A stretch of 64,000 nucleotides of DNA. Source: Eonycteris spelaea. Taxonomy: Eukaryota > Chordata > Mammalia > Chiroptera > Pteropodidae. A program made the position numbers and the translations under genes. Under the pieces are notes generated by a model that was not told where the DNA came from, did no database searches, and worked only from the letters and a program-made list of their open reading frames with translations. Positions 7,961 through 49,075 of this stretch are shown one piece after another. Numbering within the stretch: the first letter of the stretch is position 1; each line of letters starts with the position of its first letter. The stretch is from contig PUFA01000116.1 in assembly GCA_003508835.1 (NCBI GenBank), forward strand, positions 5,208,001 through 5,272,000, in the 5' to 3' direction.

Positions 7961-7999
7961 TGTTTCTCAGAATCCCTTAAAAAATGTAACCCGACTTTA

Positions 8000-8600
8000 C
8001 ATTTCTCCTTCCCCACTGCCACTACTCTAGTTCAGATTACAATGTCTCACTAGCAATCGCAGAGCAGCCCCCTAACTGGTCTCCTTGGCACCCATCTGTC
8101 TTCTCTGATTCATGTGCCAGAGTGATCATTCAAAAGTGTTAACTTTGTCAAAGCGTACTTTTGCTTAAAAATCTTTACTGACTCCTGCTGCTATCGAAGG
8201 TAAAAGGTGTTTTGACATCACCGCCCTCAATGATTTGACCCTTTTTTAGCTGCCAGCTTCATCCCCACGACTTCCTCAATCTTCTCTGCCCTGCAGGTGC
8301 GCCTCGGGACATCTGGAATCCTCACTCTCCCCCCCCACCACCCGCCCCGCTCTGCACCAATCACAGGTCACCCCTGTGCTCCAGTTGCTTGTTATCTGGA
8401 TCACTTGTGCTCACTTTCCTGGTCTCCACCTAAACTTTCTTGGTCTTTGCATACAGGAAGACCTCTGCCATCGCCCCCGGAGGCTTAGTCTCTCTGACAC
8501 AATGCTGCATTTTCATTGTTCGCTGTCATCCTGCTATGCAGTCATATCCTTCTCAGAACTGTAGCATACTGACTACTGTGTCTCAAGAACCATTCGTTGT
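8000..8600 (+). mobile_element. LINE-2 fragment
   Basis: Phrases typical of mammalian L2 follow in order: CACTGCCACTACTCTAGTTCAG, CCCTAACTGGTCTCCTTGGC, CCAGAGTGATCATTCAAAAG, TTTACTGACTCCTGCTG, and TTTGCATACAGGAAGACCTCTGCC. It is heavily diverged and has no coding frame. Confidence 0.6.
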
Positions 8601-9254
8601 TCCAGACACATAGACTCTCCTGTGATTTTTCCTGAAATAACACCAAGGAAAATACAGCTCCCTGGCACTGACTTCTTTGGGATGCTTGTCTACATTGCAA
8701 AATTTAGGATTGAATTTTTTTAAGGTAAAATTAAAATATCAAACGGGCTCTGGACTATATGAGCTTTCAACTCTGCTTCAATGCTGAGAGTCTGCGTTGT
8801 ATTCACAAATGAAAGAACTGCACATCCACTGACTTAAAGAAGAGACAATGGGAAGAAAGGGCTTTGAGACTTCTTCAAGGGAGACAGAGGATGAGCTACT
8901 GTCACATTCTTTCTCCTCTTTCCCCTTCCTTACCCCTTGTACAATTATTCCTTCCTCCTCTTTAACCTTATTTAACTTGTGCTTTTCCTCAGAGGTGCAG
9001 TCTACTCTCAGACTACTCCAGCTCGGCTGATTTACAAAGACCAAGCAGGCCCTGTGGTGTGTGCGGAAGGAAAAGGTTCAATATGGAGACTAGAGGTGAC
9101 ATCTGCACAGTGGACTGAACAATCTGGAGTCCCAAAATCCACGTTCAAGTTGTCTTATCTCTCATAGTCTTTGGCTGAGGAATCTTCCCTTTCTTAGAGA
9201 ACTATGTCTTTAAGATTTTACATGTTATTTCATGTTTTATGTGCTTATTTTGTT

Positions 9255-9338
9255 CCACTGAGTTACCCCTCTAGCAATCAAGACAAGAACATTATGTCCA
9301 CATGAAGGTCCTGCACAAAGCATTTTAATCCGCTTGAT
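9255..9338 (+). repeat. Local direct repeat, unit 1
   Basis: Unit 1 of a pair; the second is at 9,576-9,661. Both contain TCCACTGA.TTACCCCT, CAAGACAAG.ACATTATG, TCCACATGAAGGTCCTGCAC and AAGCATTTTAATC.GCTTGAT. Only a handful of positions differ over about 84 bp, one of them a one-base indel. Confidence 0.8.
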
Positions 9339-9575
9339 AGAAACACTTATTTTGTTTCTAAAGTCTAGAAAAAAAGAGTTAATAGATTTTTCAGAAATTG
9401 GACAGCTTTAATATTTAAATGATACCCCTTATATATGCTGGATTCCTCTCAAACTGTTCATATGCTCAACACAGGCTTGAAACATAATTTCCCTTGGCCA
9501 GTTATAGTCGCATGTACTAAGGACCTTTAGTTAAGAGTCTCATCAGTGTGAAACAAGACTTTTAGCTGATGCTTC

Positions 9576-9661
9576 TCCACTGAATTACCCCTCCAGCACT
9601 CAAGACAAGTACATTATGTCCACATGAAGGTCCTGCACAAAAGCATTTTAATCAGCTTGAT
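9576..9661 (+). repeat. Local direct repeat, unit 2
   Basis: Second copy of the unit at 9,255-9,338, in the same orientation and about 320 bp away. It carries an extra A in CACAAAAGC and C>A in ATCAGCTTGAT. Confidence 0.8.
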
Positions 9662-10142
9662 CGCATCCCTCTCCTCAGAACAGTGACTCACACAATGCTT
9701 GATGTGGTTACATATATTTTAAGTGAGTCTAAATGTGAAAATGTTTTGTTCCCAATGGAAACACAATAACCTTGTACAAAATTTAGATGAATAAGAACCA
9801 GTGATCCAAAGATCCATGAATAGGTCTGTGATTACAATGTAGCAAATAAAAACAGTAACTATTGTGAGATTTTTTTTTTTAATTAATAATCGCAGGGCAA
9901 AGAAATGGAGATTAAGTGTGGGAAGTTGTTATAGCGGTGCTTCACTCCTCTAAACGTGCTCCTGTGACATAAAAGTATCCCCATATCCCACACCCCAACC
10001 CAACCACTCAGCCTCCTACCGACAAGTACACATTTTGTCATCTCCTTTCTGGTTACCAGGGCAATGCAGTTGATGACTGTCACATCTGAGTTGGATGGGA
10101 GGACACACAGGCATAGTTTTTTTTCTAAATGATGCTCATGAT

Positions 10143-11062
10143 TTATCAAGAAAACTTCCATAACGGTTTCTACCAGGGCCCCTTTGCCTTATTCCTTGAA
10201 CTATAAATCATGGAGTTCAGCATGGGTGTCAAAATGGCATAAAAGAGAGAGATCAGCTTCTCCTGAAGGACAGATGGGCTGGAGCAGGACTGGATGTAAG
10301 TGAAAATGGTCATGCCATAGCACAGGACAACCACTGTGAGGTGAGAGGTACAAGTGTGGAAAGCTTTCTTTCTTCCTTCTGTGGACTCAGTCTTTACAAT
10401 GGTGAGGATGATCTGAATGTAGGACACAAGAACCAGGCAGAAAGATGTCATCAACTAGAAACCATGATTGCAATCTCATTGGAAGAGGTGTCCACAGAGG
10501 CTAGTCTGACCACAGCTAAGAGTTCACATGATATGTGATCAATAAACTTGTTTCCGCACATGGGCAGCTAAAAGGTGACGGCGGTCTGTATGACAGAGCT
10601 GACAGAGCCACTGACCCAGGATGTGATGGCCAACCTAGCACAGAGCCCTCCATGCATGATGACTGAGTACCGCAGGGGGTCACACACAGCCACATAGCGG
10701 TCATAGGCCATCACCGCCAGTAGAACAAACTCAATCCCACCCAAGGCCAAGGAGAAAAATAACTGGAATGCACAGCTCACATATGGGATTACTTTAGGTT
10801 CTGCAAGAAGATGCACCAGCATCTGAGGGACGATGCTTGTGGCATAAGAGACATCAACGACGGAGAAGTTGGTGAGAAAGAAATACATGGGAGTGTGGAC
10901 TTGGCTGTCCAATCTGATCAGAAGAACAATGAAGAAGTTTCCCAGCACGGTCACCAGGTATGTGATGGAGAATAAAACAAAGAGAGGGACCCGAGTGTCC
11001 CAGTCACTGGACAGGCCAAGGAGAATAAACTCTTTCATCCATGTCTGGTTATCTGTTCCCAC
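10143..11062 (-). pseudogene. Olfactory receptor pseudogene, OR2F1/OR2F2-like
   Basis: Olfactory receptors are seven-transmembrane odorant GPCRs encoded by one intronless coding exon. From the ATG at 11,060-11,062 the frame encodes an OR2F-like protein starting MGTDNQTW. It has HTPMYFFLTN (TM2), MAYDRYVAVC (TM3 end), KAFHTCTSHL (TM6) and PMLNSMIYSSRNK (TM7, where the usual PMLNP has P>S). The gene is broken. An in-frame TAG at 10,568-10,570 replaces a glutamine codon expected after AVTF. Near 10,455 a net loss of about 10 bases after the IMVSS-encoding stretch shifts the frame. A second TAG (10,170-10,172) follows GPW where the family has glutamine, and a codon is lost just before it (NKAKG against NKEVKG). 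So this locus cannot make a full receptor. Orientation opposite to TCAF1 matches my memory of the human locus. Confidence 0.9.
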
Positions 11063-12435
11063 TAAAAAAGTGTAGAATATTAATCAGCAGAGAGAGTCAG
11101 AAATAACAGAAGCTGTTGAATTACAGAACCATAAGAAAAACTTCTTATGTATATCATATATGCCACAAATGTTTCAGATAATTTATGGGCCAGGATGACA
11201 GGCTTGAACCTAATATGCATTATATCTAACTCTATACGAGAGAGCCTAGGCCCTTCACAAAGACACGATGTGGTCTCAGGGAGTCAGTTAAATCCTATAG
11301 ATAATGCAGTGCAATTTTGGGAAGCTCTTTTATCTTTTCAACTTACCTCAGTTTTCAGAGCAGATAATGATGGTAAGTGACAATGAGAGATAAAGTGATA
11401 AGGAAGAAAAAAATTGTTTCAAGTTCAAAAACTACACATATGTACTACACCAAATTATGGAAAAAAAATGAAAAATATAGCTATGTACTGAAAATAAGAC
11501 TGGTGTTCCATAGAAATTTCTAGAATAAGAACCTAAATATGAAACCTGTTTTTATTACTTACCAGGTGTATTATAGGATTAAAGGTTTAAACTTTTACAT
11601 ACAAAATGGAATAATGTTATATACCTTACAAGGATATAAATGCAAATGTAAACCACTTACAGAGAAAGTACTTTATTAACTGTTACTGCTAGTAGTACTT
11701 CAGTAGTATGGATATCAATTGTAGCATGAACTCCACCTTAGGAAAAATAGAGTAACTAACAAATGTGCTTTCTTCTCACGACCAAGCCACAATTTCAGAC
11801 ATTTAAAAAAATAAAAAATTAGAAAGCAAAACCTTTGATAAATTTGAAGTCTAAAGGGTAGCTTGGATACTTTGAAATTCCAGAGTCTTTATGAAAATTT
11901 GGTATCTCCATCTTAGGAAGGAGAGAAAGAAGTGATAATTTCATCTTGTTTTTTTTCTTTTTCTACCATTCTTTACTAATTCTGACTTGCTCTTGTTAAT
12001 TTCCTACGACTCTAGCCCTTCTTTCAGTAAAAAATAAAGTATGAAAATGGCTGCATAGGCTTTCTAGTGTAGGAGGAGGAAAACAAATCTGTTCACTTTT
12101 GTTGACTAGCCCATTTGCATCAGAAGTAGACATTTCATTTTGCTAATCTGGCTAATATCTTTAGAGTGTCATCTTTGTTCGATGCTGTGATTTCAAGAGC
12201 GAGTATTACGCTTGCCTACGTTAGTCATGCTCAAGTAGAACAGCACAGCACCCATCCCTGCATTTACTCTGCTGTTACACACGCAAACTGGAGAACTCAC
12301 CGTGCTCCTCGCACCCACTGGCACATTTCTCCACTGCAGCGCTTGCCTCATTACAAATGAGCGACAGCGTCACATCCCAGAGAAAGTGTGAGCTCCAGAA
12401 CCTAACATTTCCTGCTTTCAATCTATTCTTTTCTG
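11063..12435. other. No gene seen
   Basis: AT-rich intergenic sequence upstream of the OR pseudogene. No other receptor frame, exon or clear repeat is recognised. Any 5' non-coding exon of the OR gene would lie here, but I cannot point to one. Confidence 0.5.
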
Positions 12436-25180: not shown

Positions 25181-25830
25181 AGCCAGGCTTCTCTAGAGAA
25201 AAAAGAACAGGAGAGATGGATAGAAAGAGTGAGATTTACTCTAAGGAACTGGCTCACTGGGTCATGGAGGACGGCAAGCCTCAAAAGACGCCGGGTGTGA
25301 ACACGAATAACGGACACCGCGTTTAAGGCGAGGTCCGGAGGCTGGAAGAGGCGCGGCGGCACCACCACTCTCCAGCCACGCTGCCGCCTCTGACAGGAAG
25401 TGGCCTACTTTACTACCGGAAGGAGGACTTTTTCCTTGCCTAGCAACAGATCTAGCCAATGAGAAACTGCCGTGACTCAACCAATGAGGAGCCACTACAC
25501 TTCCACCGCCAGGTTTGACCAATGGACATTTTGTTTATAAGAGCCACGTCTAACTCCTCATTTTTCTCTGCTAAGTAACGTTCCTCTCCTTTGTTCTCTA
25601 GACTAGCCTGTGGGTTGCTATAGCTCACGTGTACTGAATTGCCATGTCTCTTGTCATTCCTAATAAACACATTTTTTACTGGTAAAATAACTAGCAGGGT
25701 TGTTTTTTGTTTTAAGTGGACAAGGGCGAGCCTGCAAGGTGGAGCCTCAGGAGAGCTAATGGTATAGGTCTAGTCTGAGGGCCAACAGGCTAAAGACCCA
25801 GGGAGAGCCCATGTTCAATTCAAGTCTAAG
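25180..25830 (+). mobile_element. Old dispersed repeat interrupted by an LTR
   Basis: The left arm (about 25,180-25,290: CTTCTCTAGAGAAAAAAGAACAGG, GAGATTTACTCTAAGGAAC, TGGCTCACTGGGTCATGGAGG, CGGCAAGCCTCAAAA) and right arm (about 25,735-25,830: CAACAGGCTAAAGACCCAGG, GAGCCCATGTTCAATTCAAG) fit successive parts of a common mammalian repeat whose name I do not recall. The LTR-like 25,300-25,690 block lies between them. Confidence 0.45.
25300..25690 (+). mobile_element. LTR-like, CpG-retaining element with promoter motifs
   Basis: The block has two CCAAT motifs (in TAGCCAATGAGAAACTG and CAACCAATGAGGAG), a third in GACCAATGGACATTTTG, a TATA-like TTTATAAGAGCC near 25,535, and AATAAACACATTTTTTACTGG at the 3' end. 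This is the U3-R-U5 order of a retroviral LTR. Retained CpGs upstream suggest a younger insertion than its neighbours. No viral gene adjoins it, so it would be a solo LTR. The exact TG...CA ends are not resolved. Confidence 0.5.
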
Positions 25831-26679: not shown

Positions 26680-26970
26680 GCTGACTACAGCCCTCCACCC
26701 TGCAAATACACACAGACTACAGGGACTTCTGCCAGCAAATTCACTGCCAATGGGGGCCAGGCTGTTCTGCTCGGCAACAATCCTCCCCCTGCTGCCTCCT
26801 CTCACCCCAGGCCCCTCACCCCTCCCCCTCTGACGTCAGAGACGTGCTCTCCGTAGACTGGCTCTGGAACTGGGTAAGCAAGTCTGGCCTGGGTGAGGGC
26901 TCCCAGAAGAAAAGAAGAGACCAGACTGGAAACAGTACTGAAGCCTCTAGGAGTTTAGAATGTCCTTTCT
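26680..26970 (+). promoter_or_regulatory. CRE-containing module A (paralogue of 42.5-42.8 kb)
   Basis: A palindromic cAMP response element, TGACGTCA, stands at 26,831-26,838 after a C/T-rich tract. It is followed by CTGGCCTGGGTGAGGGC (26,884) and GCCTCTAGGAGTTTAGAATG (26,943). The same three blocks occur in the same order near 42,626, with spacings of 53/112 bp here and 48/116 bp there. A possible splice donor (TGG|GTAAGC, GT at 26,874) lies inside. It looks like a decayed promoter or first exon. Confidence 0.55.
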
Positions 26971-27235
26971 CATATGTTGTCACATGTATTTCAACAATTT
27001 TGTAAAGCACCTAACTTTTAAGTGCCAGCAAAAGGACAGCATAAGTGTCTGTTTGTAAGGTGTTCCACCCACTACACTTTCTACCTGTAAAGAAGTAAAT
27101 TATCTGGGGAACAAAGAGCAACAATGCATAAGACAGAAGATGAACAGAAATACCTAAGGGAAATGAGGATACAAGGACAAGTGAGATTTAGAATTGAGGG
27201 AGGCCTATTGGATCCAGCACAGAAAGGGAACTAGC
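26971..27235. other. No gene seen
   Basis: Unremarkable intergenic DNA between module A and the MLT1 LTR. Confidence 0.4.
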
Positions 27236-27239
27236 AGGT

Positions 27240-27600
27240 CAAACTTGCTCAGTAATAAGTGAAAGAGGAGAAGCAGAGAATGAGATGTGACAACTGAAGC
27301 AAAAGTCCGGATGATGAGATTGCTGGCTCTGATGATTGATGAGAGATTGCTGGCTTGGAACGAGAAGTTTCAAGCCAAAGAATTTGGGCAGCTTCTAGAA
27401 GCTGGGTAAGGCAAAAAGATGGATTCTTCCCTAGAGCCTCCAGAAGTAACACCCCCCCTGCCTGCACCTTGATGTCAGCCAGTGAGATGCTTGCTGGCTG
27501 GACTTCTGACCTCCAGAACAGTATAAATGGTGTTGTTTCAAGCCACTAAGTTTCAAGCCACATATTATGGCTGCCCCAGGAAACCACAGGTACTCACTCC
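27240..27600 (+). mobile_element. MLT1 LTR fragment
   Basis: GATGATGAGATTGCTGGCTC, GGCAGCTTCTAGAAGCTGG, GGATTCTTCCCTAGAGCCTC, CACCTTGATGTCAGCCAGTG, GGACTTCTGACCTCCAGAAC and TGTTTCAAGCCACTAAG follow the MLT1 order to its 3' end. Forward orientation. Confidence 0.75.
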
Positions 27601-28009
27601 CCAGCTGGTATGTAGGGAATGTCACAGTGACTTTGGAGTCCAGGCTTTTAACAACCTTACCTTGTCTCTCACACATGCCTAATATCTGTCACCTGTTATT
27701 GGTTAGTAAAAACTTTAACCCATTCTGTTTAATTCATAAAATTCATACATGTGAGATTTTTTAAAACAATTCAGTGGTTATGAAGTAGTACCAACTTCTT
27801 CACACTTAGTCCTGTCCTTATATAAGCGATGCAAAATTTTCTTAAAAGAATGTAGTCATAGTCTCCATTTTAATACGAATTGATTATTTTAATTAAAAAT
27901 ATATCTGTAACCCATAGATTTTTAACTCCTCCTTGGATATAATTGTGATTAATTTGTGTAAAAATATATTATTATCAACCTCTCATTTGTTCATAAATAG
28001 TCTCGGGGA

Positions 28010-28420
28010 CTTATTTTTCAACAAATTGTCCTGCTGGCACTCCCAGGTAGGGCCCCAGTGTCTCCACCCTGGATTTGGGGCCGCATCTTCGTGCAGAAAT
28101 TGACACAAAGCGGAGCCTCTGCAGGCTGGAGGTGGCCAGCCAGGCTCCGCCCCCTGCCGCGGCCACCAATGAGCTCCCTAGATGGCCCCTCCTCGCCCCG
28201 CCTGCCTGCGACTTCCCAAGTCCCAGGCCTCGTCTGCATCTCGGTCCCTTCTCTCCTGAGAAGCTGCTTTCTCTTGGGAACTGCCGCTCCTCCCTCCTTG
28301 CTAGTCCTCTCAGTCCCCGAATCCACACTGCAGGGATCAGTGGGGCAAACGGTGAGTGGGGCAAACGGTGAGTGGGGCTCAGCGACAGATTCTGGTCCAG
28401 GAAAAGCCTGGCGGTGACAC
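28010..28420 (+). promoter_or_regulatory. CpG-rich CCAAT promoter/first-exon module B
   Basis: GC-rich segment with ATTGACACAAAGC (28,099-28,111), a GC box-like CTCCGCCCCCTG, CCAAT at 28,166-28,170, and a GGTGAGT splice donor. The donor is duplicated: GT at 28,352 and again at 28,368, through a 16-bp tandem repeat. A paralogous module lies at 39.6-40.0 kb with the same landmarks and nearly the same ATTGACACAAAGC-to-CCAAT spacing (67 against 66 bp). It lies on the same strand as TCAF1, about 20 kb upstream of its first coding exon, so a distal alternative first exon of TCAF1 or of a lost paralogue is possible. No transcript evidence is available to me. Confidence 0.55.
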
Positions 28421-29795
28421 TGGCCACAGCCCGTAGCTCTGGTGGTTCCGGAGGGGAAGAGAGGAGATGTGGCGAATGACTGCAGAGGCTGTCTGGGCGT
28501 TTATATGGGATCAAGAGGGGTGGGGACCGGTGTGGGGCCTCTGCGTGTTCCCGAGGGGGCAGTGACAGACGTGTTCCACGCAGGATTCCTTGCTGTTTGC
28601 CGCTGAGAACCTTCTCTGGTGCCCCCCTGCAGCTCGGTCTCCCTTTCCTTCTTGCCATCTAGTTATTCACCCTTGTTTATCGGGAAGCCATGACCCCCTA
28701 TTTTCTTGTGATTACTTTGTGCTCCGTGAGAGTATTGAGATTAGAGCTGAAAAGAATTGTGGAGGCGAAGGCATCTCACCACCTGGAGCTCGCTCTGGAA
28801 TTTTTTCAGCGTAGCCTGACTCTACATAACCCTCTCCTCCCCCAAGGTTAAAGTCCTCACCTACCCAAGGGCTCTGCGAGGGGCCTTCAGAGTGTCCGTG
28901 GTGGGGAGGAAGATGTGAGGTGCTGGAGGGGTGGTGGTGAGAGGGGGTGCAGGGGCCCAGGTGGAATGTTAGTCTAGAATGCATTTGGCCTTCTGGTAAG
29001 TGCTGGGTTAAACAGTTACTAGATGAGTGGCCCTGGAGCTGGCCGCTGAGTTGACTCAAAGGGCAATGGAGGGAGAAGGCCTTAAGCCTAGGAGAAAAAC
29101 AGTTACTAGTGAGATAATCGTGGAAACGTTGGGAAGAAGTGCAGGCCTAACCAGATGTAGAGCACAGAATGTATCTGTCTAGCTGATCACCCATCCATCA
29201 TCCATCCTTTCATACTCCAAATTATTTATTAGTAAATTGATTTAATTTCAACATAGTAGTACCCCCTTACCCACCATTCCACCATTTCAGTTACCCACAG
29301 TCAACCAGTCTGAAAATATCAAATAGAAAATTTTAGAAATGAACAATTCATAAGTTTTAAATCGCACGCTGTTCTGAGTAACGTAATGAAATTCCTGCAC
29401 TGTCCCTGGTTTCTCAGCCAAGATGCCTCAACCAACAGATCCACTGTCAGGGGATGGCAGTGCTTATGTTCAAGCAACCCTTATTCTACACATCAGTTCT
29501 TTGCCACATGGGCTTCTTCTGTATAGGAGCTTGCTTCCCCCAGTGGGAAGGCTCTCAGAGAGAAAGAGACAGATGAACAAAAGCCAGATTCTTTTGGTAA
29601 CCTAATCTCAAAAGTGACCTCTTATCACTTTGCCATATATTCATTAGAAGCGAATCATTGGTTCTAGCCCACATTCAAGGGGAAGGGATTAGACAAGAGC
29701 ATGAATACCCAGAAGCAGGGATTATTGGGGGCCATGTTAAAGGTTGCTTACTACAGGGCAGATTAACAAATAACATTCTTGTACGTGACTTTTAG
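28421..29795. other. No gene seen
   Basis: GC content falls after about 28.8 kb. The long minus-strand frame across 28.0-28.66 kb is a shadow of CpG-rich composition. The 29,590-29,760 part (AATCTCAAAAGTGACCTC, GGGGAAGGGATTAGACAAG) looks like an old dispersed repeat that I cannot name. Confidence 0.4.
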
Positions 29796-29799
29796 TTCA

Positions 29800-32700
29800 C
29801 ACAGGCAGTTTTCCTGGCGTATACACCTAGATGTAGAATTACTGAGTTATAAGATTTATGTATAGTCAACTTCATTAGGTTATTTCCAAGTTGTTTTCAA
29901 AGTGTTGAGCCAGTCTGCACTCCAACAACAGATGATCGTTCCTGTTGCTCTACATACTTGTCATAACTTGGTCTTATGAAATTTCATCTTTAGCTAGTCT
30001 GGTAGGCATGAAATAACATTCCCTCGTGATTTTAATTAGCATTTCTTTGATAAGAAATGAATTTGACCATCTTTCATATGTTGATGAGCTATATTGCTTT
30101 CTCTCTGTGATAATTCTGGTTCCTGTCTTTTACTCATTTTCATGTTGGGTGGTCTTTTTCTTCTCAACTCACTGGAATGCTTTCTTTATATAATCTGAAT
30201 ACTAATTAATCTTTTGTTAGCAATATTTCCTGCAAATATCTGCTTTCTGTTTAGTACTTAGCTTTTCTTTCTCTGTATGTCTGAAGTTTTGACTTTTAAT
30301 TTCAAGTGACCATTATTTTCTTTTATAGTTGTCTTGAGAAAATTATTTTCCCAAGATAATAAATCAATTTTGCTGTATTTCAAAAGCTTTTATTGTTTTG
30401 CATTTGGCCATTAGTCTTAATTCACCTGGAAATTGATTGTTACATTTTTTATTCCACATGGGTAATAATTATCCAGGCACCAGTGATCTGCATGAATCAA
30501 GTTTTTCACACATGCACGAATTTGTTTTAAGCTCCCTACTCCCTTTCATTATCTCTTTGTCTAATTCTGCGCCAATACAAAATTGTTTTTAATTACTGCA
30601 GTTTTATAATGAGTCTTGAAACTTGGTCAGAAAGATCCTCCCACCTCTTTATTCTTCTCCTAGAGTGTTTTAGCAATTCTTGGGCCTTCAACCTTCCATA
30701 TAAATATTTAAAGAACAAAATGAGAAACAAGCGAGCAAATAAACAAATCTACTAGAATTTTGAATGATATCGAATTAATTCTATATGTCCAATTTGGGGA
30801 GAAATGGCCTCTTTAAAATGTTGAATTTTTCCACCTATGAGCTTGGTACATAATGCTATTTATTTAATTCAACTTTAATATTTTTAAGGTTTTATAATAT
30901 TTTTCCTCATTTTCCTTTTGTTCCTTTTTGTTAAATCTATTTATAAGTACATTTTATTTTTACTATTGTAGATGTTTTTTATAAAAATTATATTCTGTAG
31001 CTTATTGTTCCTACTATATAGAAATTCAACTTCCTTTTATATATTGATTATATATCAAACTTGATAAAACTCAATTAATAATTCTAAATTTAACTATAGA
31101 ATCTTTCAGATTTGCTACACAAGTAGTCATATCATCTAAAAATGACAGTTTTATTTCTTCCTTTGCCATCCTTATAACTTTAATTTTTTTTTTTGTTTTA
31201 CTGCTTTGGTTAGTACCACCAGTAGAATATTGAATTAAAGTAGAGAAAGGCATCTTGTTTTATCTGTTAAATAAAGAGAAAGATTTCACTATATCAACTT
31301 CAAATATTGCACTCATGATGGTTGTTTTGTAAATGCTCTGTCCCATGATAAGAACATTCAGTTCTCTTTTTGGTAAGCACTTTTATTATGAGGAGACGTT
31401 TTATTGAATGCTTCTATAGCTATTGATTTTTACATATAATTTTCCATTAAATATGTTAATATGATGAAGTGTAGTTTTTAATATTTAATATTAAATCAAC
31501 GTGACATCCAGGAATAAACCCTCTATGGTAAATATGCAATAAATTTATGTATAGATATAAAGGTAAGCATTAGATATTTGCATCTATATATGTGAATTGA
31601 GGTCGGCCTATAATTATCCTTTTTGGTACTAACCTTATCTGTTGCTGTTATTATCTCATAAAATAAGATAGGTAGTATTCTCACTATTAATATTCTCTGG
31701 AAGAATTTGTGCAAGATTGGAATTATGTGATCCTTGAATATTTCCTCAAATCACCAAGAAAACCATCAGGGTTTGGAGTTTATTTTGTCAGAAGATAATA
31801 AACTTGTTGCTTCAATTACTTTAAGGATTATAGGACTATTTAAGCTTTCTTATGAGTCAGTTTTCATAAATTGTAATTTCCAAAATATTTAACCATTTCA
31901 TATATATATACATATGTTCAAAATAGAATATAATTGTTCTTAATATCCTCTTATTATCTGTTTAAATATTTCCATTTTCTATTATTATGACCTCCTTCTC
32001 GTTATGAATATGCATATGTATTATTTCTTTTTCTGTTTTGTCAGAACTTGTACTACTTTATTAGCTCTTTCACATACACAAAAAACCTTCTGTCTTTTTT
32101 TTACATTAATTGTTATTTTATTTCTTCCTCCTATCTTCGAATTTTTCTTTTACTTATTTTCTAAGCTCTTAAGGTGTATCCTTAGCTTATTAATTTGAGC
32201 TTTTCTACATAAGCTCTTAAGGCTATAAATTTGTGGCACTTCTTTTTTAGCTATATTTCATGAGCTTCGATACAACTATTTTGTTACTAGGTAGCTTTAA
32301 GTATTTTTAATTTCTACTTTGGTTTCTTATTTGAGCTATGAACTTTTTAAAAGTGTATATTTTAATTTCCAGTCACTCAAATGAAGATTCTTTTATTATT
32401 TTGTAGTAAACATTGCCTAATTTATAATATAGTCAGAAAAATATATGATACCAATTCCTTTAGAGTTATTGTAATTAGCGTTATTACCTAGCATGTGGTC
32501 AGTTTTACTTGTATACTTAAAAATAATGCATACTCTCTAATTATATAAAGCCCTACGTACATTTTTAAAACAAGTGTGCTAATTATGAAATCCAGATCTG
32601 CCGTATCTTCATCAATTTTTATCTGCTTGAATTATCAATTACACAAATGGGTGTATTAAAATTTCTCACTATATGGTAGATTTGGAAATTTCTCATTATA

Positions 32701-33225
32701 GATTTGTATATTTTTACTTTATATATTTCAAAGCTATATTATTAGTGAATTGGAGTACATTGAAAATTTTATCATAATGTAGGGATACAATATTTTGGCT
32801 ACCTATTAATTAATAACTTTTGTTTTAAATTTTTAATGTGTTCAGATATCAAATTAGGGTTTCCTTGATTGGTGTTTACCTCATTTATCTTTCATCCTTT
32901 GAGTTTAAATCTTTCTAAATCTATGTTTTAAAAATCATCTCAAAAACTTTTCTATATTTTTTAAATCCTAGGTTTTTAAAATTGTTTGATAATTTATAAC
33001 TTATTGAATAATTTAATCATTATATTTATTGTGATTAATAATACTATTAGATTTATTTCTACCATCTTATTATTGGGTTTATTTTTCTGTTTTATCTTTT
33101 TCATTCATTTCCCTTCTTTCATTCGTCTCCTTTCTTTTTTCTCCTTTGTTTCCCAATTTTTCCTCTTCTTGTTTAGAAGTTACATGTTCTATATTTTAGG
33201 TTGAATGCTTTAGATATACTCTAAT
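29800..33225 (-). mobile_element. Old LINE-1, minus strand, decayed
   Basis: From left to right it reads as a reversed L1: 3' region (TTAATTAGCATTTCTTTGAT), then ORF2 pieces such as GGTTAGTACCACCAGTAGAA, ACATCCAGGAATAAACCC, GGAAGAATTTGTGCAAGATTGG and CATCAGGGTTTGGAGTTTATTTTG. A more decayed AT-rich tail follows, plausibly the endonuclease end. All frames are broken. More than one insertion may be present; the 5' boundary is uncertain. Confidence 0.6.
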
Positions 33226-33234
33226 CAAATAACA

Positions 33235-35880
33235 CATTTAACTCATAACATTTATTGAGGTATAATTGACAAAAAATATGTGTATATATAGTGAACAATG
33301 TGATCTTTAGATGTATGTATACGTTGCGAAATGAGTACCACAACCAAGCTAATTAACATAGTGATCATCCACATAGTTTATCCATTTTTATGAGAACAAT
33401 TGAAATCTACTCTGTTAGCAACATAATAATACAGTGTTATTAACTAGTCACCGTGCTATATATTAGATCTTCAGGGCTTATTCATCCTATATATCTGAAA
33501 CTTTGCAACTTTTGACCAGTATTTTCCCATTTTCCCCACCCCAATGCTCCCAGTAACCATCATGCTATTCTCATAAACCACCGTAAATGCTATGCTTTTA
33601 TGAGTTTGACTTTTAGATTTCACATATAAGTGAGTTAATACAGTATTTGTCTTTCTCTGAATTCAAAAGTTAGCATAAATGCCCTCAAGTTTCATCCATG
33701 TTGTTGCAAGTGGCAGAATTTCCTTCTTTCTTTATGACTAAATAAATTCCATTGTATTCACATAACACAACTACTTTATCCATTTATCCGTTTGATAGAC
33801 ACTTAAGTTGTTTCCATATTGAGGCTACTGAATAATGCTGCAATGAACAGGGGCGTGCAGATATCTCTTCTGGATGCCAGTTTCATTTCCCTTGACTATA
33901 CACCCAGAAGCAGTGTTGCTGGATAATGTGGTAGTTCTATTTTTAACTTTTTGAGGAACGCTTATATGTACTGTTTTCTGTAATGACTCTACCAATTTAT
34001 GCTTCCACAGCAGTACACGGGGTTCCCGTTTCTTCACTTCCTCACCAACACTTTTTATCTTTTGTCTTTTTTATATTAGCCCTTCTAATAGGTGTGAGGT
34101 GACATCTCGTGGTTAGGTTTGCATTTCCCTGATGGTTAGTGGATTTGAGTGCCTTTTCATAACCTGTTGGCCATTTGTATGTCTTCTTTTGAGAAATGTC
34201 TATTCAGGTCCTTTGCTCATTTTTTAATTGGATTATTTGCTTTCTTTCTGCTGAGTAGTTTAGGTTCCTTATATATTTTGGATGTTAACCCCTTATTGGA
34301 TATATGGCTTGCAAATATTTTCTCCCATTCCACACGTCGTCCCTTCACTCTGCTCTTCCCTTTGCTGTGCAGATGCTTTTTAGTTTGATATAGTCCCACT
34401 TGTTTATTTTTGCTTTTGTTGCCAATGTTCTAGGGGTCATATCCAAACATTTTATTGCCCAGACCAATGTCAACAAACTTTTTCCCTGTTTTCTTCTAGT
34501 AGCTTTACAGTTTCGGGCCTTACATTTATGTCTTTAATGCATTTTGAGTTGATTTTGTATATGGTGTGGGATAAGAGTGCAATTTCATTTTTCTTCATGT
34601 GGATCTCCAGTTACTCCAGCACCGTTTTCAAAGAGAATGTCTTTTCCCTGTTTTGTACTCTTTGCATCTTTTTTGAAGATCAGCTGAAGTGTGCAGGTTT
34701 AGTTCTGGGCTCTCTATTCTGTTTCATTTATGCAAGTACCATACTGTTTTTATGCAAATATCATACTATTTTGATTATTACAGCTTTGTAGTATAGATTG
34801 AAATCAGGCAAGGTGATGCCTAAAATTTTATTCTTCTAATTGAATTTTTTTTTTTTTTTGGCTATTTAAGTTCTTTGGTGGTTCCATATGAATTTTAGAA
34901 TTAGTTTTTCTATGTCTGTGTAAAATGCCATTGGAGTTTTGATAGGGATTGCCTTGAATCTGTAGATAGCTTTGGGTAATATAGACATTTTAACATTGTT
35001 AATTCATCCAATCCATGAACACAGAATATTTTTTTATTAACTTGTGTCTTCAACTTATTTTATCATTGTTTTTTAGTTTTCAATATACCCATCTTTTACC
35101 TCCTTAGATAAATTGGTTCCTACGTGTTTTATTGTTTTTGATTCTCTTATAAATAGGACTGTTTTCTTAATCCCTTTCAGATATTTTGTCATTAGTGTGT
35201 GAAGACACAAATGAGTTTATATTTTGTCATTAGTGTATGAAGACATAAATGAGTTTATATTTTGCAACCATACTGAATTTGTTTATTTTATAGATTTTTG
35301 GTGCAGTCTTTAGGGTTTTCTATATATAAGATTATGTTGTCTGCATACAGAAACAATTTAACGTCTTCTTTTCCATTTTGGATGCCTTCTTTTTCTTGCC
35401 TAATTGCTCTGGGTAGAACGTCCAGTACAATACTGAAAAGTAGTGAGAGTGGGACTCCTTGTCTTGTCCCTGATCTTTGAGGAAAAGCTTTCAGCTTTTC
35501 ACCTTTGAGTATGAAGTTAACTATGGGCTTGTAATATATGCTCTTTCTTATATTGGGTACATTTATTTTATATCCAATTTGTTGAGAGTTTTTGTCATAA
35601 AAGGATGTTGTATTTTGTCAAATGCTTTTCTGTGTCTACTGAGATGCTCATATCATTTTATCCTTCATTTTTTAAATATGGTATAGCACATTTATTGATT
35701 TGAAGATGTTGAACCATCCTTGCATCTCTGGAATAAATCCCATTTGATCATGGTCTATGATCCTTTCAGTGTACTGTTGAATTCAGGTAATATTTGTTGA
35801 GAATTTTTACATCTATGTTCATCAAGATGTTGGCCTGTAATTTTTTTTTCTCATAGTATCTTTGGCTTTGGTATCAGGGT
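33235..35880 (-). mobile_element. LINE-1, minus strand, 3' UTR and ORF2 part
   Basis: Starts at the 3' UTR (TTTATTGAGGTATAATTGAC, TTCATCCATGTTGTTGCAAG, GGCTACTGAATAATGCTGC, ACACCCAGAAGCAG), then the reversed ORF2 C-terminal and RT regions (GAGTTGATTTTGTATATGG, CAGCTTTGTAGTATAGATTG, GCATACAGAAACAATTTAAC, GAACCATCCTTGCATCTC). A 38-bp tandem duplication lies at about 35,181-35,256. It is disrupted and less decayed than the neighbouring L1 on its left. Confidence 0.8.
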
Positions 35881-36175
35881 AAGGGTAAGGTTCAAACAAT
35901 GCAATAACATTAAAACAGTTTATTTTCATTAATCTTTATCTTGCAGCTGTGTTATTATATTGTATGTTTCATTTTCATACGCTTTTATATCTCACAAGAC
36001 ACTGTATCTGCTTAAAACAGTCAATATTAACTTGTACTTACTTGTATTTACTATATGAAAGAAAAGTATTCTCTTTTCTTTCACAGAGGCTTCTATCTGG
36101 GATAATTTTCTTTAATCCCAAAGAACTTTTTGTAGTTCTTATACTATATTGCCAACAAATTCTCTAGGCTTCTGT
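35881..36175. other. No gene seen
   Basis: AT-rich joint between two L1 pieces; no feature recognised. Confidence 0.4.
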
Positions 36176-36179
36176 TTAT

Positions 36180-37150
36180 CTATAATTGTCTTTATTTTGC
36201 CTTCTATTTTGCTGTGCATAGAGTTTTGGTAGATTTTATTTTTTTTCTTTTAAAGCAATTCCATCGTGTTCTCATTTCCATCGTTTCTTTTGAAAAGCCA
36301 CCTGTATTATTATTTCCCTGAATGAAAAATATCCTTTATGCCTTGGCTGATTTTCAGATTTTCTTTCTGAATTTGGTTTTCACTATGATGTGCCTAGGTA
36401 TAGTTTTCTTTGGATGTATTCTACTTAGAGAATATAGTTTTTTCCATTTGAGTTTTGATGTTTTTCATCTATTTCAAGGAATTTTCAGACTCTAATTACA
36501 CGTGTCATAACTTTTTACCATGTCTCATCATTATATTATGCTCTTTCTATATCTTTTTATCTCTTTGGACATCAGCTTTTCCTCCCTCTGTATGCTATTT
36601 TTGATACCTTTTGTAGGTATCAAAACTATGTAAACTTTGTTACAGTTCACTGATTCTCTGGTCATTTGTATCTAATATGCTATTAAATCCAATTATTGAA
36701 TTTCTGATTTCAATGATTTTTTTTATTGTCGACACTTCCATTTTACTAATTTTGTGAGTTTTCATTCTATACTAAAATTCTCCAGCCTTGTTCTCTTTTG
36801 GACATATTAATCAGTTATTTTAAAGTCAGTCCCTAAGAACTCAGATGTTTTAACCACTTGGAAGTCTGTTTCTATTATCTCCTTTTCCTGAGTTCTTGGC
36901 AATTTATCTTGATTTTTAACCTCCCTCTAAATTTCTTGATTGGATGCGGAACATCGTGACTGAAAATTTACAAAGTTCCGCTTGATATTATTATTTTTCA
37001 AAGTGGATTTTTTTCAGTGTACCAACAGATGAATTTCATATTATCAAAGGTCAGTTGCAAGGTTTCTTAGAACTGGTCCATCTCAGGTTTTTCCTTTCTC
37101 TAGGAGCATACTTCTTACTCTTCAGATGTCATTCTTAGTCACATGTCCTG
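36180..37150 (-). mobile_element. LINE-1 5'-region fragment, minus strand
   Basis: AAAGCCACCTGTATTATTA, TATGATGTGCCTAGGTATAG and ATCTATTTCAAGGAATTTTC correspond, reversed, to the L1 part present in forward orientation at 5,399-5,790. The right part is more decayed. Confidence 0.45.
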
Positions 37151-39295
37151 GCTTTTTCATATGTGCACTGAAAGCAGGGTGTTTTGCTAAGAGTCATTTA
37201 CCTCGGTGAGACGCCCTCCACTGCTTTGTTTACTCCCAGAACGGTACAGTTACTGGAATGACTGCTCGGTTGTTTAGCATTTTGCCACTATTTTCTTCAA
37301 CTCTTGCGCGGGGTCTCTCCCTGTGCATGCGCAGCTTAGGAGTCAGCCAGTGACTTACGGGGAATGTACACAGAAATTTTTAGACTCTCGTCTCTGAGAC
37401 GTCCTCTTTGAAATTTTGCCCGTTCAGTCTCAGTCAGTTTGGTCATCTTGAGCCAGTCAGACTGACACGTTCTGCTTGGCCTCAGTTACCCTGCAGAGTA
37501 AACTGGAAAATGCCCTGGAGGAAGAAAATGCCATCTTGAACGTGGAACTCCTTTGCCCTGTTTTCCTTCCCCTGGGATCCTAGCTTCTCAAGCCCTGCTC
37601 ATGTTGTTTACTCCTCAGAGGCTTCCGTTGGTATTTCGTCCAACTCTCATAGCATTTTTCAGTGGGAGGGTTGTTCCAAACAAGGTGTATTCTCAATGCC
37701 AGATCTGGAAGTCTCTTGCTAGTTTGTCTTACATCTCAGATTCTTTAGCTGAGATTATTTTATTTCTCCTTGAAATACAACCTTGAGAATTCCCTGTAAA
37801 GCAGATCTTTTGATGATAAATTCTCAGTGTTTTTTGGTCTGAAAATAATATTTTCAAGACTCCTGTAATAGATGATAATGCCTGCGTGGCACTGGGTGTA
37901 AGAAGGCAGGGAGTATAGCACTTGGGTGGTTTCCAGCTTTAGGCTATGGATGGCTGGTGCATGTTTTTGGCGACATGTGTATGCATTTCTATTGGGTGTA
38001 TACCTAAGAGTGGTGTTACTGAACAGTTTTATTTCAAAATGATTTTTGTAACATTTTAAAAATACAAAATGTCTAAAGAAAAAAATGACCAGTCAGCCCT
38101 CCCCACTTCCTGAGTTCACCAAATATGTCCTTATTTTTCCAGATTAACATAAATGAAAAAGTAGGATCATAAATTTATCACTGAAAATATATATTGAAAG
38201 TGTTCTTCGAGGTCTGCCTTGAGTTCATCCTTTTGAAGAAATGCATAATATTTCGTAGTATGGATTTTTAATAAGTTGTTCATTCCTATATTGCTGAGTA
38301 TTTACAGAACTTAATATCTCAAAAGTTATTTCAATGCTTTAACATTTCGTGGCAGCCTCTATTACTCAGGACAAAAAAAAAAAAAAAAAACCTGGAAAGA
38401 AAAACACAAACTCTAGGGGAATTAGAACTAGAGAAGGGTATAGGATTTAAAATCAAAGTAGTAATGTGGAGTCTGAAACAGATAAAGAGAGGATAGAACC
38501 AGCTGCTACGGAAAGAAAACAAAGGCTTAGGGAGAAAAAAAAAAAGGAAAAAAAAAACATGAAGGAGAAAATATGCAGTATAGGCAATTTGTAATTTGAT
38601 CGTTTTCTATATGGAGCTGCTGTTTGCTTCGCTTGGGGGTGATCCTAGGATTGCTTTCCTCAGCCCACATCCATCTATTTGGTTCATCTATCTACCAAGT
38701 GGACATTACAGAGCATGCGTCTAGGGCCACATGAAGTGGAAAAACTAAAGAAGAAAAAACACCGTTCTTGACTTATGCTTACTTTGGTTTGGGGAATTGA
38801 ATGAAAACCTGAATAATACTGGAGGGTACTCTATCTATCGCCTTTACCAATGAATCCACGTTCCAGTGGAAGGTCCAGCCTGAACACTGTTTTGTGATCG
38901 GATAGAAAGCTTTTTAATGGTCTCTTCCCAGGGACAGTTTGGTCTGGGGACACCTCCTCCTTAGGTCCCCTAAGAACCAGGGCCAGGGCAGTGAGGCGAG
39001 GGGTGAGGAACCAGGAGAATGTAAAGGAGCCACAGAAATTTCAAGGCTTTGGGGCCAACCGTGAAAAGGGAAAATTGGTTTTCCCCCAGGTCTAAAGATG
39101 AACTCACAAAGCCAGATGAGCAGACACCAATTCAAGGCAGGACCTGGTCAGGCATGGGGCCAGGCCCTGGCTCAAAAGGCAAGTGCTGGATCCCACCCTT
39201 TACTTGATTAAAATGACACAGGATTCGAAACAAATTCAAGAAACCCACACACAGGAAGAAAGCTGTATGAGCAAGGGTATTTTATCTATTTTTAG
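37151..39295. other. No gene seen; poly(A) tracts and L1-like patch
   Basis: No exon supported. Contains an A20-like run at about 38,371-38,390, further A-rich runs at 38,535-38,560, and at about 37,980-38,320 an old minus-strand L1-like patch (TTCTATTGGGTGTATACC, ATGCATAATATTTCGTAGTATGG). Confidence 0.45.
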
Positions 39296-39299
39296 TTGA

Positions 39300-40030
39300 T
39301 TAAATTTATTTTATCACAAAATAATGTGTATTACTATTAAAATTTTAATGAGGTGTATGAAGAAAAAAATACTTAAAAGCTACTCTTTCCTGTCTGAAGT
39401 AATAGCTTGATGTACGTTTTTTCATATAATTTCTATGTTTATATAAGTATTTAAAATATTTTTAAAGTTTTTCCTACAAATATGCCAGCTCTCCATTTTA
39501 CAACCACGTTAAATGTTTATTTAAAAGATGAATATAAATATAGTCTCACTTCTGGCAAATATATAGAGATTTAAGGCATCCTTGTAAACATTTGTGTATC
39601 ACTTCATATAAAGATCTATCATAATGTAGCAACCCCACCCTCGTTGGTAAACAGTCTCACGGATTTATTTTTCAAAAAACGGCCTTGCCGCACTCGCGGC
39701 TCGGATATTGACACAAAGCCGGGCCTCTGCGGTCCGGGGAAGGGGGCGGGTCCGCCCCCACCGCCGCGGCCGCCAATCAGCCGCGGGATCGGCCCCCTCC
39801 GCTCCCACCTCTGCACCGCAGCCCACCTCCCCTGACAGGCCAGGCCTCCCACCATCATCGCCACCGATTTCCAAACCCCCAGGCTGCCTGTCCCCTCTCC
39901 TCGTCACGTCTCTGCAGAGGAGTCCCTTCCCCCTCCGAAGTCGCCCAGTGGAAATTGCTGGACAACCGGTGAGTCTGGTCCAAGGATGGTTTCTGGAACC
40001 GGAGCAGGCCCAGGCGCCCTGACCGAGCCA
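39300..40030 (+). promoter_or_regulatory. CpG island promoter/first-exon module B'
   Basis: From about 39,640 the sequence is strongly CpG-rich. Landmarks: ATTTATTTTTCAA, ATTGACACAAAGC at 39,707-39,719, Sp1-type GGGGGCGGG and CCGCCCCC, CCAAT at 39,773-39,777, and the splice donor CCG|GTGAGT (GT at 39,969). It pairs with module B at 28.0-28.4 kb. The similarity seems to extend about 110-300 bp upstream, into non-GC-rich DNA, so it is not mere composition. It lies on the TCAF1 strand about 8.5 kb from the coding exon and is a good candidate for an alternative TCAF1 first exon. Confidence 0.6.
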
Positions 40031-40250
40031 CCGATCCGGGGTGGGAGAGAGAGGGACCCGGCCCGGATCCTGGGTAGCGCAGGGGATGGGGCGCCTGCAG
40101 GGCTGCGAAGGTGGTCGGGTTTGGGGCCCCAGACCGCTTGGGCCTAAGGAGGCAGATGTCTTTCAAAGAAGCATCCCTGCGGTTTCTCCATGTCCGTTTC
40201 TGCCTTTTTTTTTTTTTTTACCTCTATGGCTGTTAATTATTGGTCTCCAG

Positions 40251-40458: not shown

Positions 40459-40959
40459 GTAAGTCGGGTGGTGCCCTTTCCATGTATATTTTTGTTCTTT
40501 TATTTTTATGTAAGCAATATATGCATTTTCATTTTAAATTTTTTTAATTAAAATATTTTGGAGTTTTACCTTGCGGTGCTATTAGTCCTGGCATTTCAGA
40601 CCGGAAAGGGACTTAGCAAGCAAGTCACCGGCCCTTCTTGTTTAGCTGAGAACCCTGAGCCCTGGAGAAGATAAAGGACTGCTCACTGTCACTCGGGTGG
40701 TCCTTGAAGAGACAGGATCCTGAATTCAAGATCTCAGTTTCTGTTCCTGGTGTTTCCTGGGTGTAAACCCTGCCACTGAGATCACCTACCCACAACCCCC
40801 TCCTGATTATTGTTCAGATGAGTCGATTTGGAGGAAAGGGGTTGAAGGAAGACGGGAAAGGAAGTATAGTCTGACTCGGATTGGACAAAAACCCTTGCTA
40901 GGAGTCAAAGATGCATTTTCCTGAAACATGAAGTATTGATTCTTAGGACAACCTGAATA

Positions 40960-41235: not shown

Positions 41236-41689
41236 GCGAGAACTGCCACTAGACTGACGTGACGTCACACACGAAGCAGGGAGTTGCAATTCACAGGGGA
41301 ACAGCTGTCACCTGATTATTAGAAAGGACTTGGAAAGAAATAGGGCTTGAAATGTACACTGAAGAATAAATTGCATATGAACTATATTCTTATTTTTAAC
41401 TTACAATGCAAACTACGTAGAGCTATACAAAATTGCCCTCGGCTGTCTCCTAGGTGAAACAGTATTAGCAGGTAGAGCTGTATGTAGCCTGTCCTCTCCC
41501 ACCATAATACGAATATACGCGGAGCTATGTTTTATTATAAAAAGGAAAGCACATTCTACAATTTCCAGAGTTTTTATTTTCTCCTTGGCAATACTTCAAG
41601 TGCATCGCTCTAATCGAATGGAGATCTAAGCTCTTCAGAGAACTGAGTAACATTCCGCAGGAGCCTTATAGTTTGTTGAGCCGTGTCCT

Positions 41690-42300
41690 TACTCGCGTGT
41701 AGTCAGAGGCGTGTGTCTCTCACAAAACGGCCGCCCCCGCTGCCGGGTGGGGGCCGCTGCCGCGGTGCCGAGCAGACGGGGCCGGCGACACAAAGAAGCG
41801 CTGTCCCCCGCCAAGCGCCGCCCCTCGGGCTCGCTGCCGCCCGGGAGGAAGTGAGGAGGAGGGGAGCTCGGGAGCCCCTCCCCTCCTCCCTCTCCCCGGC
41901 TCGGCCCTGCTCCCCGCTCGTGCTCCCCGCGCGGCTCGCAGCGGAGCCCCTTCCCCGTCGCAACGCGCATCCCCTCCGCACGCAGCCCTGCCCCCCTGTC
42001 CACCGCGGGGCGACCAGGTGAGTGGCCCCCCTGGAAAGCCTGGCAGGCGGCAGAGGGGCCGGCGGCGGCGGAGCGGCCCGGGGCTGGGGGAGGGCGCTGC
42101 CGCGGGCCGAGGGGGCGCAGCGGGGCGGGGGGCGCCGCCGCCGGCGACAGAACCCGTCGCCGTCTGTGTCGCGGTCCTGCCGGCGCGCGTCCCGTGCTCT
42201 CGGGCCCTGCGTCGCGTCCGCCGCAGCGCTGCTCCTCTCGGGGTCTGACATCCGATGTCGTCTGCCTGCTTTGTGTCGTCGAGCTACGCACGGGCCTGAC
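41690..42300 (+). promoter_or_regulatory. Main CpG island with first exon donor (candidate TCAF1 promoter)
   Basis: The densest CpG island in the window, with many GC boxes and no TATA motif. A strong donor CCAG|GTGAGT (GT at 42,018) ends a plausible non-coding first exon on the TCAF1 strand; joining it to the acceptor at 48,441 would remove a 6.4 kb intron. A GACACAAAG word (41,787) is shared with modules B and B', and CAAAACGGCC resembles the B' text at 39,673, so it may be a third, more diverged relative. Long open frames on both strands are GC-rich shadows. Confidence 0.6.
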
Positions 42301-42419
42301 CAGCAGGAGCTGCATCTGGGCCGCAGCGTTAGCGGATGACAATACCGTGGCCCAGCGAGGAGGCAGGGCCGGCTCGGGCTCACACAGGTGGCTCGTGACA
42401 GCACCCTTCTGGCCTACTG

Positions 42420-42780
42420 CCCTTTGATCTGTGCAAACACCGTGTCAGGGACCGAGATCCCTCGCCCACTCTCCCTGGCCCCCTGGCTGTGCGTGGAGAG
42501 GGGCCGACCTCTTCCCAGACTGTGCCGGCGGGCCACAGCGCCCTGCCAGCCCCAGCTTCTCCTCTCGCTGCCCGCCTCCCGCTGCCGCTCCCACTCCCCC
42601 ACCGCCACCCGCCCCCGTCCTCCCCTGACGTCACCGACTCGGCGCTTTGTGGACTGGGCCTGCGGAGGAAAGGCTGGCCTGGGCGAGGGCCTGGAGAGGA
42701 AAGCGGGGTGAAGGGTCTCTCGCCAGAACTTCACACTGACAGCCCCTAGGAATGTAGAACGTCCTGCCTCCAGCATCGTC
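42420..42780 (+). promoter_or_regulatory. CRE-containing CpG module A' (paralogue of 26.7-27.0 kb)
   Basis: TGACGTCA at 42,626-42,633 after a C-rich tract, then CTGGCCTGGGCGAGGGC (42,674) and GCCCCTAGGAATGTAGAACG (42,742) reproduce the order seen near 26,831. This copy is much richer in CpG, consistent with an active, unmethylated promoter element, whereas the 26.8 kb copy has lost CpGs. The CRE suggests CREB/ATF responsiveness, by inference only. Confidence 0.6.
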
Positions 42781-48441: not shown

Positions 48442-49075
48442 AAGTCCCTCCAGCCATGGCGACTCCCTCTGCTGCCTTCGAGGCCCTTATGAACGGAGTA
48501 ACAAGCTGGGATGTCCCGGAAGATGCCATCCCATGTGAACTGCTTCTCACTGGAGAGGCCTCCTTCCCAGTGATGGTGAACGACATGGGCCAGGTCCTCA
48601 TCGCTGCGTCCTCGTACGGCCGAGGCCGCCTGGTGGTGGTGTCCCACGAGGACTACTTGGTGGAAGCCCAGCTCACTCCCTTTCTCCTCAACGCAGTGGG
48701 GTGGCTCTGCTCTTCCCCAGGGGCGCCTGTTGGTGTGCACCTATCCCTGGCACCTCTGGCCAAAATCCTCGAGGGCTCTGGCGTGGAGGCGAAGGTTGAG
48801 CCAGAAGTGAAAGACTCCCTGGGAGTTTACTGTATCGATGCCTACAACGAAACCATGACTGAAAAGTTGGTCAAGTTCATGAAACGTGGAGGGGGCTTGC
48901 TCATTGGAGGCCAAGCCTGGGATTGGGCCAACCAAGGCGATGATGAAAGGGTTCTCTTCACATTCCCTGGGAACCTCGTGACCAGCGTGGCCGGTGTGCA
49001 CTTCACTGACAACAAAGGAGACACTAGTTTCTTTAAAGTGTCTAAGAAGATGCCCAAGACCCCAGTCTTGGTTAG
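48442..49075 (+). CDS. TCAF1 first coding exon (TRPM8 channel-associated factor 1, N-terminal part)
   Basis: TCAF1 binds the cold-sensing cation channel TRPM8 and promotes its delivery to the plasma membrane. The exon begins after TTTGCAG at 48,441. The start ATG is at 48,456-48,458 in a good Kozak context (GCCATGG). It ends at the donor AG|GTGAGT (GT at 49,076). The coding part, 48,456-49,075, is 620 bp: 206 full codons plus two bases, so the exon ends in phase 2. The protein begins [15 protein letters not shown] and, as I recall the human protein, matches TCAF1 with only scattered differences; TCAF2 is clearly more distant. Visible blocks include [17 protein letters not shown] and [18 protein letters not shown], the repeated N-terminal domain that resembles a glutamine-amidotransferase-like fold. 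The full protein is about 920 residues, so about three quarters, including the peptidase M60-like domain, lies in exons beyond this window. The apparent termination just after codon 206 is intronic. No frame damage is seen. Confidence 0.95.

Follow-up and report, generated by a model that had tools for sequence, protein, structure and literature searches.

Elements ahead of the TCAF1 coding sequence

TCAF1 is a mammalian gene whose product partners the cold-sensing channel TRPM8. In this study, we analysed the 5' region of this gene in the bat Eonycteris spelaea, on a stretch of 64,000 nucleotides of contig PUFA01000116.1 (C113:5,208,001-5,272,000; the genome comprises 1.96 Gb in 3,802 contigs). 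This whole stretch is called the window, and positions are counted from its first letter. The region carries two related promoter-like modules, M1 and M2, a CpG island and two copies of a second element, K1 and K2, all of which precede exon 2 of TCAF1 and share its strand. Transcription of TCAF1 probably begins at several points, and two of these would be of duplicate origin.

TCAF1 exon 2, the proposed common acceptor exon, occupies positions 48,442-49,075 of the plus strand, between an acceptor AG that ends at 48,441 and a donor GT at 49,076. The first TCAF1 coding exon was recognized by a tblastn match at 48,456-49,073 with 95% identity to residues 1-206 of human TCAF1, and the gene name rests on this human protein sequence, which served as the probe. 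Pfam assigned no family to the exon. The exon begins 14 bases ahead of the start codon at 48,456; therefore, any first exon joined to this acceptor is untranslated.

M1 (27,796-28,440, plus strand) is the outer copy of the promoter and first-exon module and M2 (39,418-40,045, plus strand) is the inner copy, 11.6 kb away. The two match each other in blastn, at 62% over 290 columns and 72% over 108 columns, and in shuffle-tested local alignment. The preliminary description of this DNA had listed a series of short words in the same order in both modules, together with a GC box, a CCAAT box and a GGTGAGT donor, and all of them were found. TTATTTTTCAA stands at 28,011 in M1 and 39,665 in M2 and has four copies across the window. 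It is followed by the ATTGACACAAAGC block (28,099-28,111 and 39,707-39,719, plus strand), which has no other exact copy in the window, and then by GCCTCTGC (28,115 and 39,723), TCCGCCCCC (28,146 and 39,751) and GCCGCGGCC (28,156 and 39,763). The CCAAT boxes (28,166-28,170 and 39,773-39,777, plus strand) are of the NF-Y type by motif, and the distance from ATTGACACAAAGC to CCAAT is 67 bp in M1 and 66 bp in M2, exactly as had been described. The donor of M2 is at 39,968-39,974 on the plus strand. In M1 a 16-base tandem repeat of 2.5 copies (28,339-28,378, plus strand) doubles the donor, so that GGTGAGT occurs at 28,351 and 28,367.

The strongest CpG island, which the preliminary description did not contain, lies downstream of M2 at 41,680-42,700 (GC 0.74; ratio of observed to expected CpG, CpG o/e, 0.82). 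This main island is a candidate third promoter and first exon, with the donor CAG|GTGAGT at 42,017-42,023 on the plus strand. Donors were scored by a simple frequency scheme with a threshold of 7.5; between 26.0 and 48.4 kb the donors above the threshold were that of the island, which scored higher, and one at 40,459. GGTGAGT is found six times on the plus strand of the window, four times as a candidate donor and once as the donor of exon 2.

The second duplicated element, K, was likewise absent from the preliminary description. K1, the outer copy, is at 26,782-26,971 and K2, the inner copy, is at 42,575-42,770 on the 3' edge of the CpG island, both on the plus strand. Each contains the full cyclic AMP response element (CRE) TGACGTCA, at 26,831 and 42,626, respectively. 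A third full TGACGTCA in the window is found at 41,260, just upstream of the CpG island. Only five such sites occur in the 324 kb around the gene, and three belong to the 5' region of TCAF1.

Homology and age of the copies

Local alignments of M1 and M2 were compared with 300 block-wise dinucleotide shuffles per test. The preliminary description had proposed aligning 27,700-28,450 with 39,250-40,050, and this alignment scored 135, far above the composition-matched shuffles (mean 53.9, maximum 73). The stretch 28,000-28,420 against its M2 counterpart scored 75.5 (shuffle maximum 49.5) and the core, 28,100-28,180, scored 38 (maximum 17). The likeness had also been said to run upstream into AT-rich DNA, and it does: the AT-rich flank alone (27,700-27,999 against 39,300-39,650) scored 57, the shuffle maximum being 50. 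It fades upstream of about 27,770 and 39,390, and 27,200-27,760 showed no similarity to 38,700-39,360 (score 20.5, shuffle mean 22.5). The chain of colinear exact words common to M1 and M2 was matched by none of 1000 shuffles at word lengths of 7, 8 and 9. It is thus well supported by alignment that M1 and M2 are about 650 bases of common descent, which are most alike in the promoter core and only weakly alike in the exon.

K1 and K2 are also homologous. They match by blastn at 65% over 203 columns (expectation value, E, about 4e-12), and their identity in a MAFFT alignment is 0.60. The score of the whole stretch was reached by none of 500 shuffles under both scorings, and that of a shorter stretch by none and one of 500. 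Along the strand the elements stand in the order K1-M1-M2-K2, all in direct orientation. This order would not come from one simple tandem duplication. Three units followed by losses would account for it, as would a rearrangement at a later time.

The relation of the CpG island to the modules was examined through GACACAAAG, a word picked after inspection of the sequence. It occurs four times in the 64 kb, once in M1, once in M2 and twice in the island (41,787-41,795 on the plus strand and 42,269-42,277 on the minus strand), where 0.74 is expected, and none of 100 shuffles had at least four. For the island alone, two were seen against 0.0023 expected, which none of 3000 shuffles gave. Among the 12 nine-mers common to M1 and M2, two overlapping ones recur in the island, and both come from the GACACAAAG element. 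GACACAAAG is not exclusive to promoters, because it occurs 12 times in the 324 kb. About 215.58 kb from the window start (C113 about 5,423,583), two GACACAAAGC words stand 13 bases apart on the minus strand.

As a possible third copy of the module, the island was aligned with M1 and M2, with the following results, all uncorrected. Against M2 its score was reached by 75, 5 and 6 of 300 shuffles (257, 257 and 267 of 300 for the control stretch 42,080-42,560), and against M1 by 55, 272 and 29 of 300 (control 33, 289 and 215). In a restricted test the figures were 9 and 10 of 500 against M2, and 171 and 57 of 500 against M1. Word chains were matched by 18, 13 and 43 of 1000 shuffles against M2 and by 21, 42 and 18 of 1000 against M1, with controls at 981 and 298 of 1000.

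The outer copies are poorer in CpG than the inner ones: CpG o/e is 0.47 in M1 and 0.77 in M2, and 0.19 in K1 and 0.63 in K2. CG in M2 or K2 is opposed to TG or CA in M1 or K1 at 15 places and the reverse is found at four (not counting the AT-rich flank, which has 1 and 0), a difference with a two-sided sign-test probability of about 0.02, calculated by hand. Other changes of a CG numbered 23 and 11 (again not counting the AT-rich flank, which has 1 and 2). The CpG-type differences point mostly to the outer copies, which suggests that CpG would have been lost there.

A simple simulation reproduces the M1/M2 alignment score at about 0.25-0.30 substitutions per site and branch, and the AT-rich flank has a Kimura two-parameter (K2P) distance of 0.76 in the MAFFT alignment. 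Compared with SINE consensus sequences, the window gave matches to MIR alone, four in number. The 324 kb gave 23 MIR matches, together with 13 short ones to the bat-type consensus (no longer than 39 columns) and two to the carnivore-type consensus (no longer than 31 columns), lengths that do not suffice to tell the host order. The 10 neighbourhood MIR copies of at least 100 columns are 67-75% identical to the MIR consensus. Because of the substitution fit, the K2P distance of the flank and the MIR identities, the M duplication is probably about as old as MIR activity, and hence older than the placental radiation, by a rough estimate.

The exact matches between M1 and M2 are clustered in blocks. 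Exact runs of at least eight bases total 66 bases, a total that was reached by none of 188 simulated uniform-rate pairs of similar score (108 at 0.25 and 80 at 0.30 substitutions). When the score was not conditioned on, it was reached by 1% of the pairs at 0.25 and 21% at 0.20, the scores at 0.20 being mostly above the observed one. Because the exact-run total exceeds that of the conditioned simulations, the blocks look as if they may have been selectively kept in both copies.

These observations bear on a rather unlikely but not negligible explanation, namely that M1 has died as a promoter or is decaying: the duplication would be real, and M1 would now start no TCAF1 transcript, or would act only as an enhancer or as a start of non-coding RNA. 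The low CpG o/e of M1 and K1 would suit such decay, as would the position of the M1 donor inside the tandem repeat and that of the main CpG island, with its better-scoring donor, downstream of M1. However, M1 retains the GC box, the CCAAT box, the spacing and the donor, and the exact-match blocks of M1 and M2 total more than under simulated uniform decay.

Copy number and the question of a lost paralogue

M1, M2 and K2 were used as DNA queries against the 1.96-Gb home genome, and each matched only itself, in a search that sees close copies only. M1 did not retrieve M2, nor M2 M1, and for this reason the search excludes close copies only and the absence of a match is not proof of rarity. A family of close M copies is thus unlikely. 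In the 324 kb around the gene, neither a third M nor a third K was found by sensitive blastn, and nhmmer with a two-copy M profile gave no third M (next matches at E 5.2 and 7). It seems very unlikely that an old interspersed repeat is the source of both M1 and M2. Such an origin would agree with the shortness of M and K, each of which is present here in two copies, and a repeat whose copies had diverged like M1 and M2 would have been missed by the genome search. On the other hand, M1, M2 and K2 are alone in the genome at the level of that search (K1 was not among the queries), the 324 kb hold no extra M or K by the more sensitive blastn and no extra M by nhmmer, and M1 and M2 point the same way ahead of a single gene.

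The preliminary description had offered two interpretations: either two paralogous promoters serve TCAF1, or one of them is the remnant of a lost paralogue. The first is the best reading of the present results, and the second found no support. It would make M1 the promoter remnant of a TCAF gene lost between the olfactory receptor and TCAF1. In coordinates continued beyond the window, further TCAF1 matches extend as far as about 70.7 kb. TCAF2 lies behind them in tandem, at 84.3-97.2 kb of the same strand. One can thus conceive of a third tandem unit, and the order K1-M1-M2-K2 may be compatible with three units and losses. However, TCAF1 and TCAF2 probes detected no second TCAF exon in the window, although the TCAF2 probe detects the TCAF1 exon at E 4e-84. 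The next best match (E 0.14), at 28.2-28.6 kb, is GC-rich and was obtained with the low-complexity filter off. The idea that other parts of the window contain a TCAF coding remnant was accordingly rejected for want of a meaningful probe match.

The preliminary description had also suggested a comparison with the TCAF2 promoter, and within the same genome no similarity to the module was found upstream of TCAF2. The CpG island there, at 81.75-83.0 kb, showed no similarity to M1, M2, K1 or K2 in eight of eight tests, its scores being reached by 16 to 173 of 200 shuffles. In wider stretches upstream of TCAF2, the scores were reached by 158 and 53 of 200 shuffles for K2 and by 53 and 39 of 100 for M2. 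Homology of M or K with the TCAF2 upstream region was rejected on these shuffle tests. When the 41.7-kb island was aligned with that of TCAF2, 161 and 6 of 200 shuffles reached the score under the two scorings. Given the missing coding remnant and the missing module at TCAF2, a lost TCAF gene is a most improbable source of M1.

The remaining features of the locus are as follows. A stretch of raised CpG at 24.75-25.75 kb was considered as a further promoter copy and rejected, as blastn gave no match to M, K or the island. The part of the window at 25,400-25,700 reads like a lone long terminal repeat, with three CCAAT boxes, TTTATAAG and AATAAA as its signals. The olfactory-receptor reading frame is on the minus strand at 10.6-11.1 kb (Pfam 7tm_4, E 5e-22). 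Two stretches near it have near copies upstream of the window, which indicates local duplication: 7,993-9,347 (97.8% over 1,362 columns) and 9,994-11,148 (87.7% over 1,201 columns), the latter covering the olfactory-receptor frame. A direct repeat of 86 columns, 93% identical, joins 9,254-9,338 and 9,576-9,661. The coding exons of TCAF1 and TCAF2 show frame breaks (stretches L007-L009, C113:5,272,001-5,302,000), perhaps from sequencing error. Rfam and tRNA scans of the window gave no match each. The TCAF exon had eight pattern matches in viral contigs and 27 in prokaryote contigs, none of them a relative, and a motif scan of the viral contigs gave no match.

Proposed alternative first exons of TCAF1

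The reading that we prefer, with a probability of about 0.6, is that two or three alternative first exons, all untranslated, serve TCAF1 and that M1 is an ancient CpG-poor copy related to M2, in which blocks resembling factor sites were kept. A promoter and its untranslated first exon would have been duplicated locally, long ago, in the TCAF1 5' region. M2 and the adjacent downstream CpG island would form a CpG-rich start region that is probably broadly active. M1 would be an outer, CpG-poor promoter retaining TTATTTTTCAA, ATTGACACAAAGC, GCCTCTGC, the GC box, GCCGCGGCC.CCAAT and the donor. First exons ending at 28,351 or 28,367, at 39,968 and at 42,017 would each be spliced to the acceptor at 48,441. 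Because the acceptor exon begins 14 bases before the TCAF1 ATG, every start would yield the same protein under different control. In spliced models with assumed starts, none of the four had an upstream ATG.

For human TCAF1, one report describes a start that lies upstream (TSS1), and in addition an intragenic CpG island that covers a putative alternative start (PMC5351588), and a table in another gives a methylation region of FAM115A, the human TCAF1, at chr7:143581612-143582257 (PMC5342191). M1 may correspond to an upstream start of this type. We take the human gene to begin some 17 kb upstream of the FAM115A region, and M1 as the upstream start would fit such an arrangement.

Several results weigh against alternative first exons of duplicate origin. 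The exon body alone (28,180-28,420) scored 34.5 against a shuffle maximum of 37.5, and the sequence past the donors (28,420-29,000) scored 35 against 38, with z 3.3 in both cases. The intron side close to the donors was marginal: 3 and 17 of 500 shuffles reached the score of 28,365-28,450, and 77 and 47 of 500 that of 28,376-28,500. The MAFFT identity of M1 and M2 is 0.53 in the AT-rich flank, 0.65 in the core and 0.50 in the exon. Because exon body and intron side align weakly, the case for a shared donor rests mainly on order and spacing, and the donors of both M1 (ACG|GTGAGT) and M2 (CCG|GTGAGT) score below 7.5. The longest exact run, of 13 bases, was reached in about 16-17% of the conditioned simulated pairs; the simulation is one simple mutation model in which two copies are compared, and it leaves room for gene conversion. 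With up to three mismatches, the 13-mer block ATTGACACAAAGC was not enriched in the window (22 matches, 28.6 expected from shuffles). Moreover, a survey of full-length human transcripts (PMC8387397) recovered one isoform each for genes in the TCAF1 subfamily. However, the open reading frame was the basis on which that survey retained its models, so that first exons differing only in untranslated sequence may not be told apart in it.

A wider proposal, which we regard as unlikely and put forward tentatively, is that M1, M2 and the island form an array of related promoters that arose before the placental radiation, when the region would have been duplicated locally more than once. They would have in common a GACACAAAG element bound by one factor, and K1 and K2 would be paired CREs. 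According to PMC8387397, the activity of TRPM8 probably depends on how abundant TCAF1 is compared with TCAF2; under this proposal the choice of start would set the level of TCAF1 versus TCAF2, and so TRPM8 activity, by tissue.

Should both M1 and M2 be active, they would be a natural experiment in which two promoters of one descent, one CpG-rich and one CpG-poor, stand before one gene, and the function of the kept blocks could be separated from the effect of CpG density. M1, M2 and the island also give concrete candidate start sites for TCAF1. On the scale of a genome, this is an ordinary kind of event. A literature search found no description of duplicated TCAF1 promoters in the titles and abstract openings among the matches listed.

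The feature described here is real and probably old, and would belong to a known kind, the alternative promoter that arose by duplication. Alternative promoters with untranslated first exons that are spliced to a common coding exon are general in mammals. The TCAF1 5' region resembles them in having several candidate first exons, one acceptor just before the ATG, and both a CpG-rich and a CpG-poor promoter. Unlike mammalian alternative promoters generally, the first-exon regions of M1 and M2 are homologous, which points to duplication and not to independent gain. The human TCAF1 of PMC5351588 is the same gene, and there too a start precedes a CpG island inside the gene; however, the subject of that paper is methylation, and its accessible part does not mention duplicated promoters. 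The human-specific segmental duplications of TCAF (PMC8387397) affect this locus and gene family as well. They are large, of recent origin and almost identical to one another, whereas M and K are short pairs from another mammal whose copies are about 50-72% alike, the figure varying with piece and aligner.

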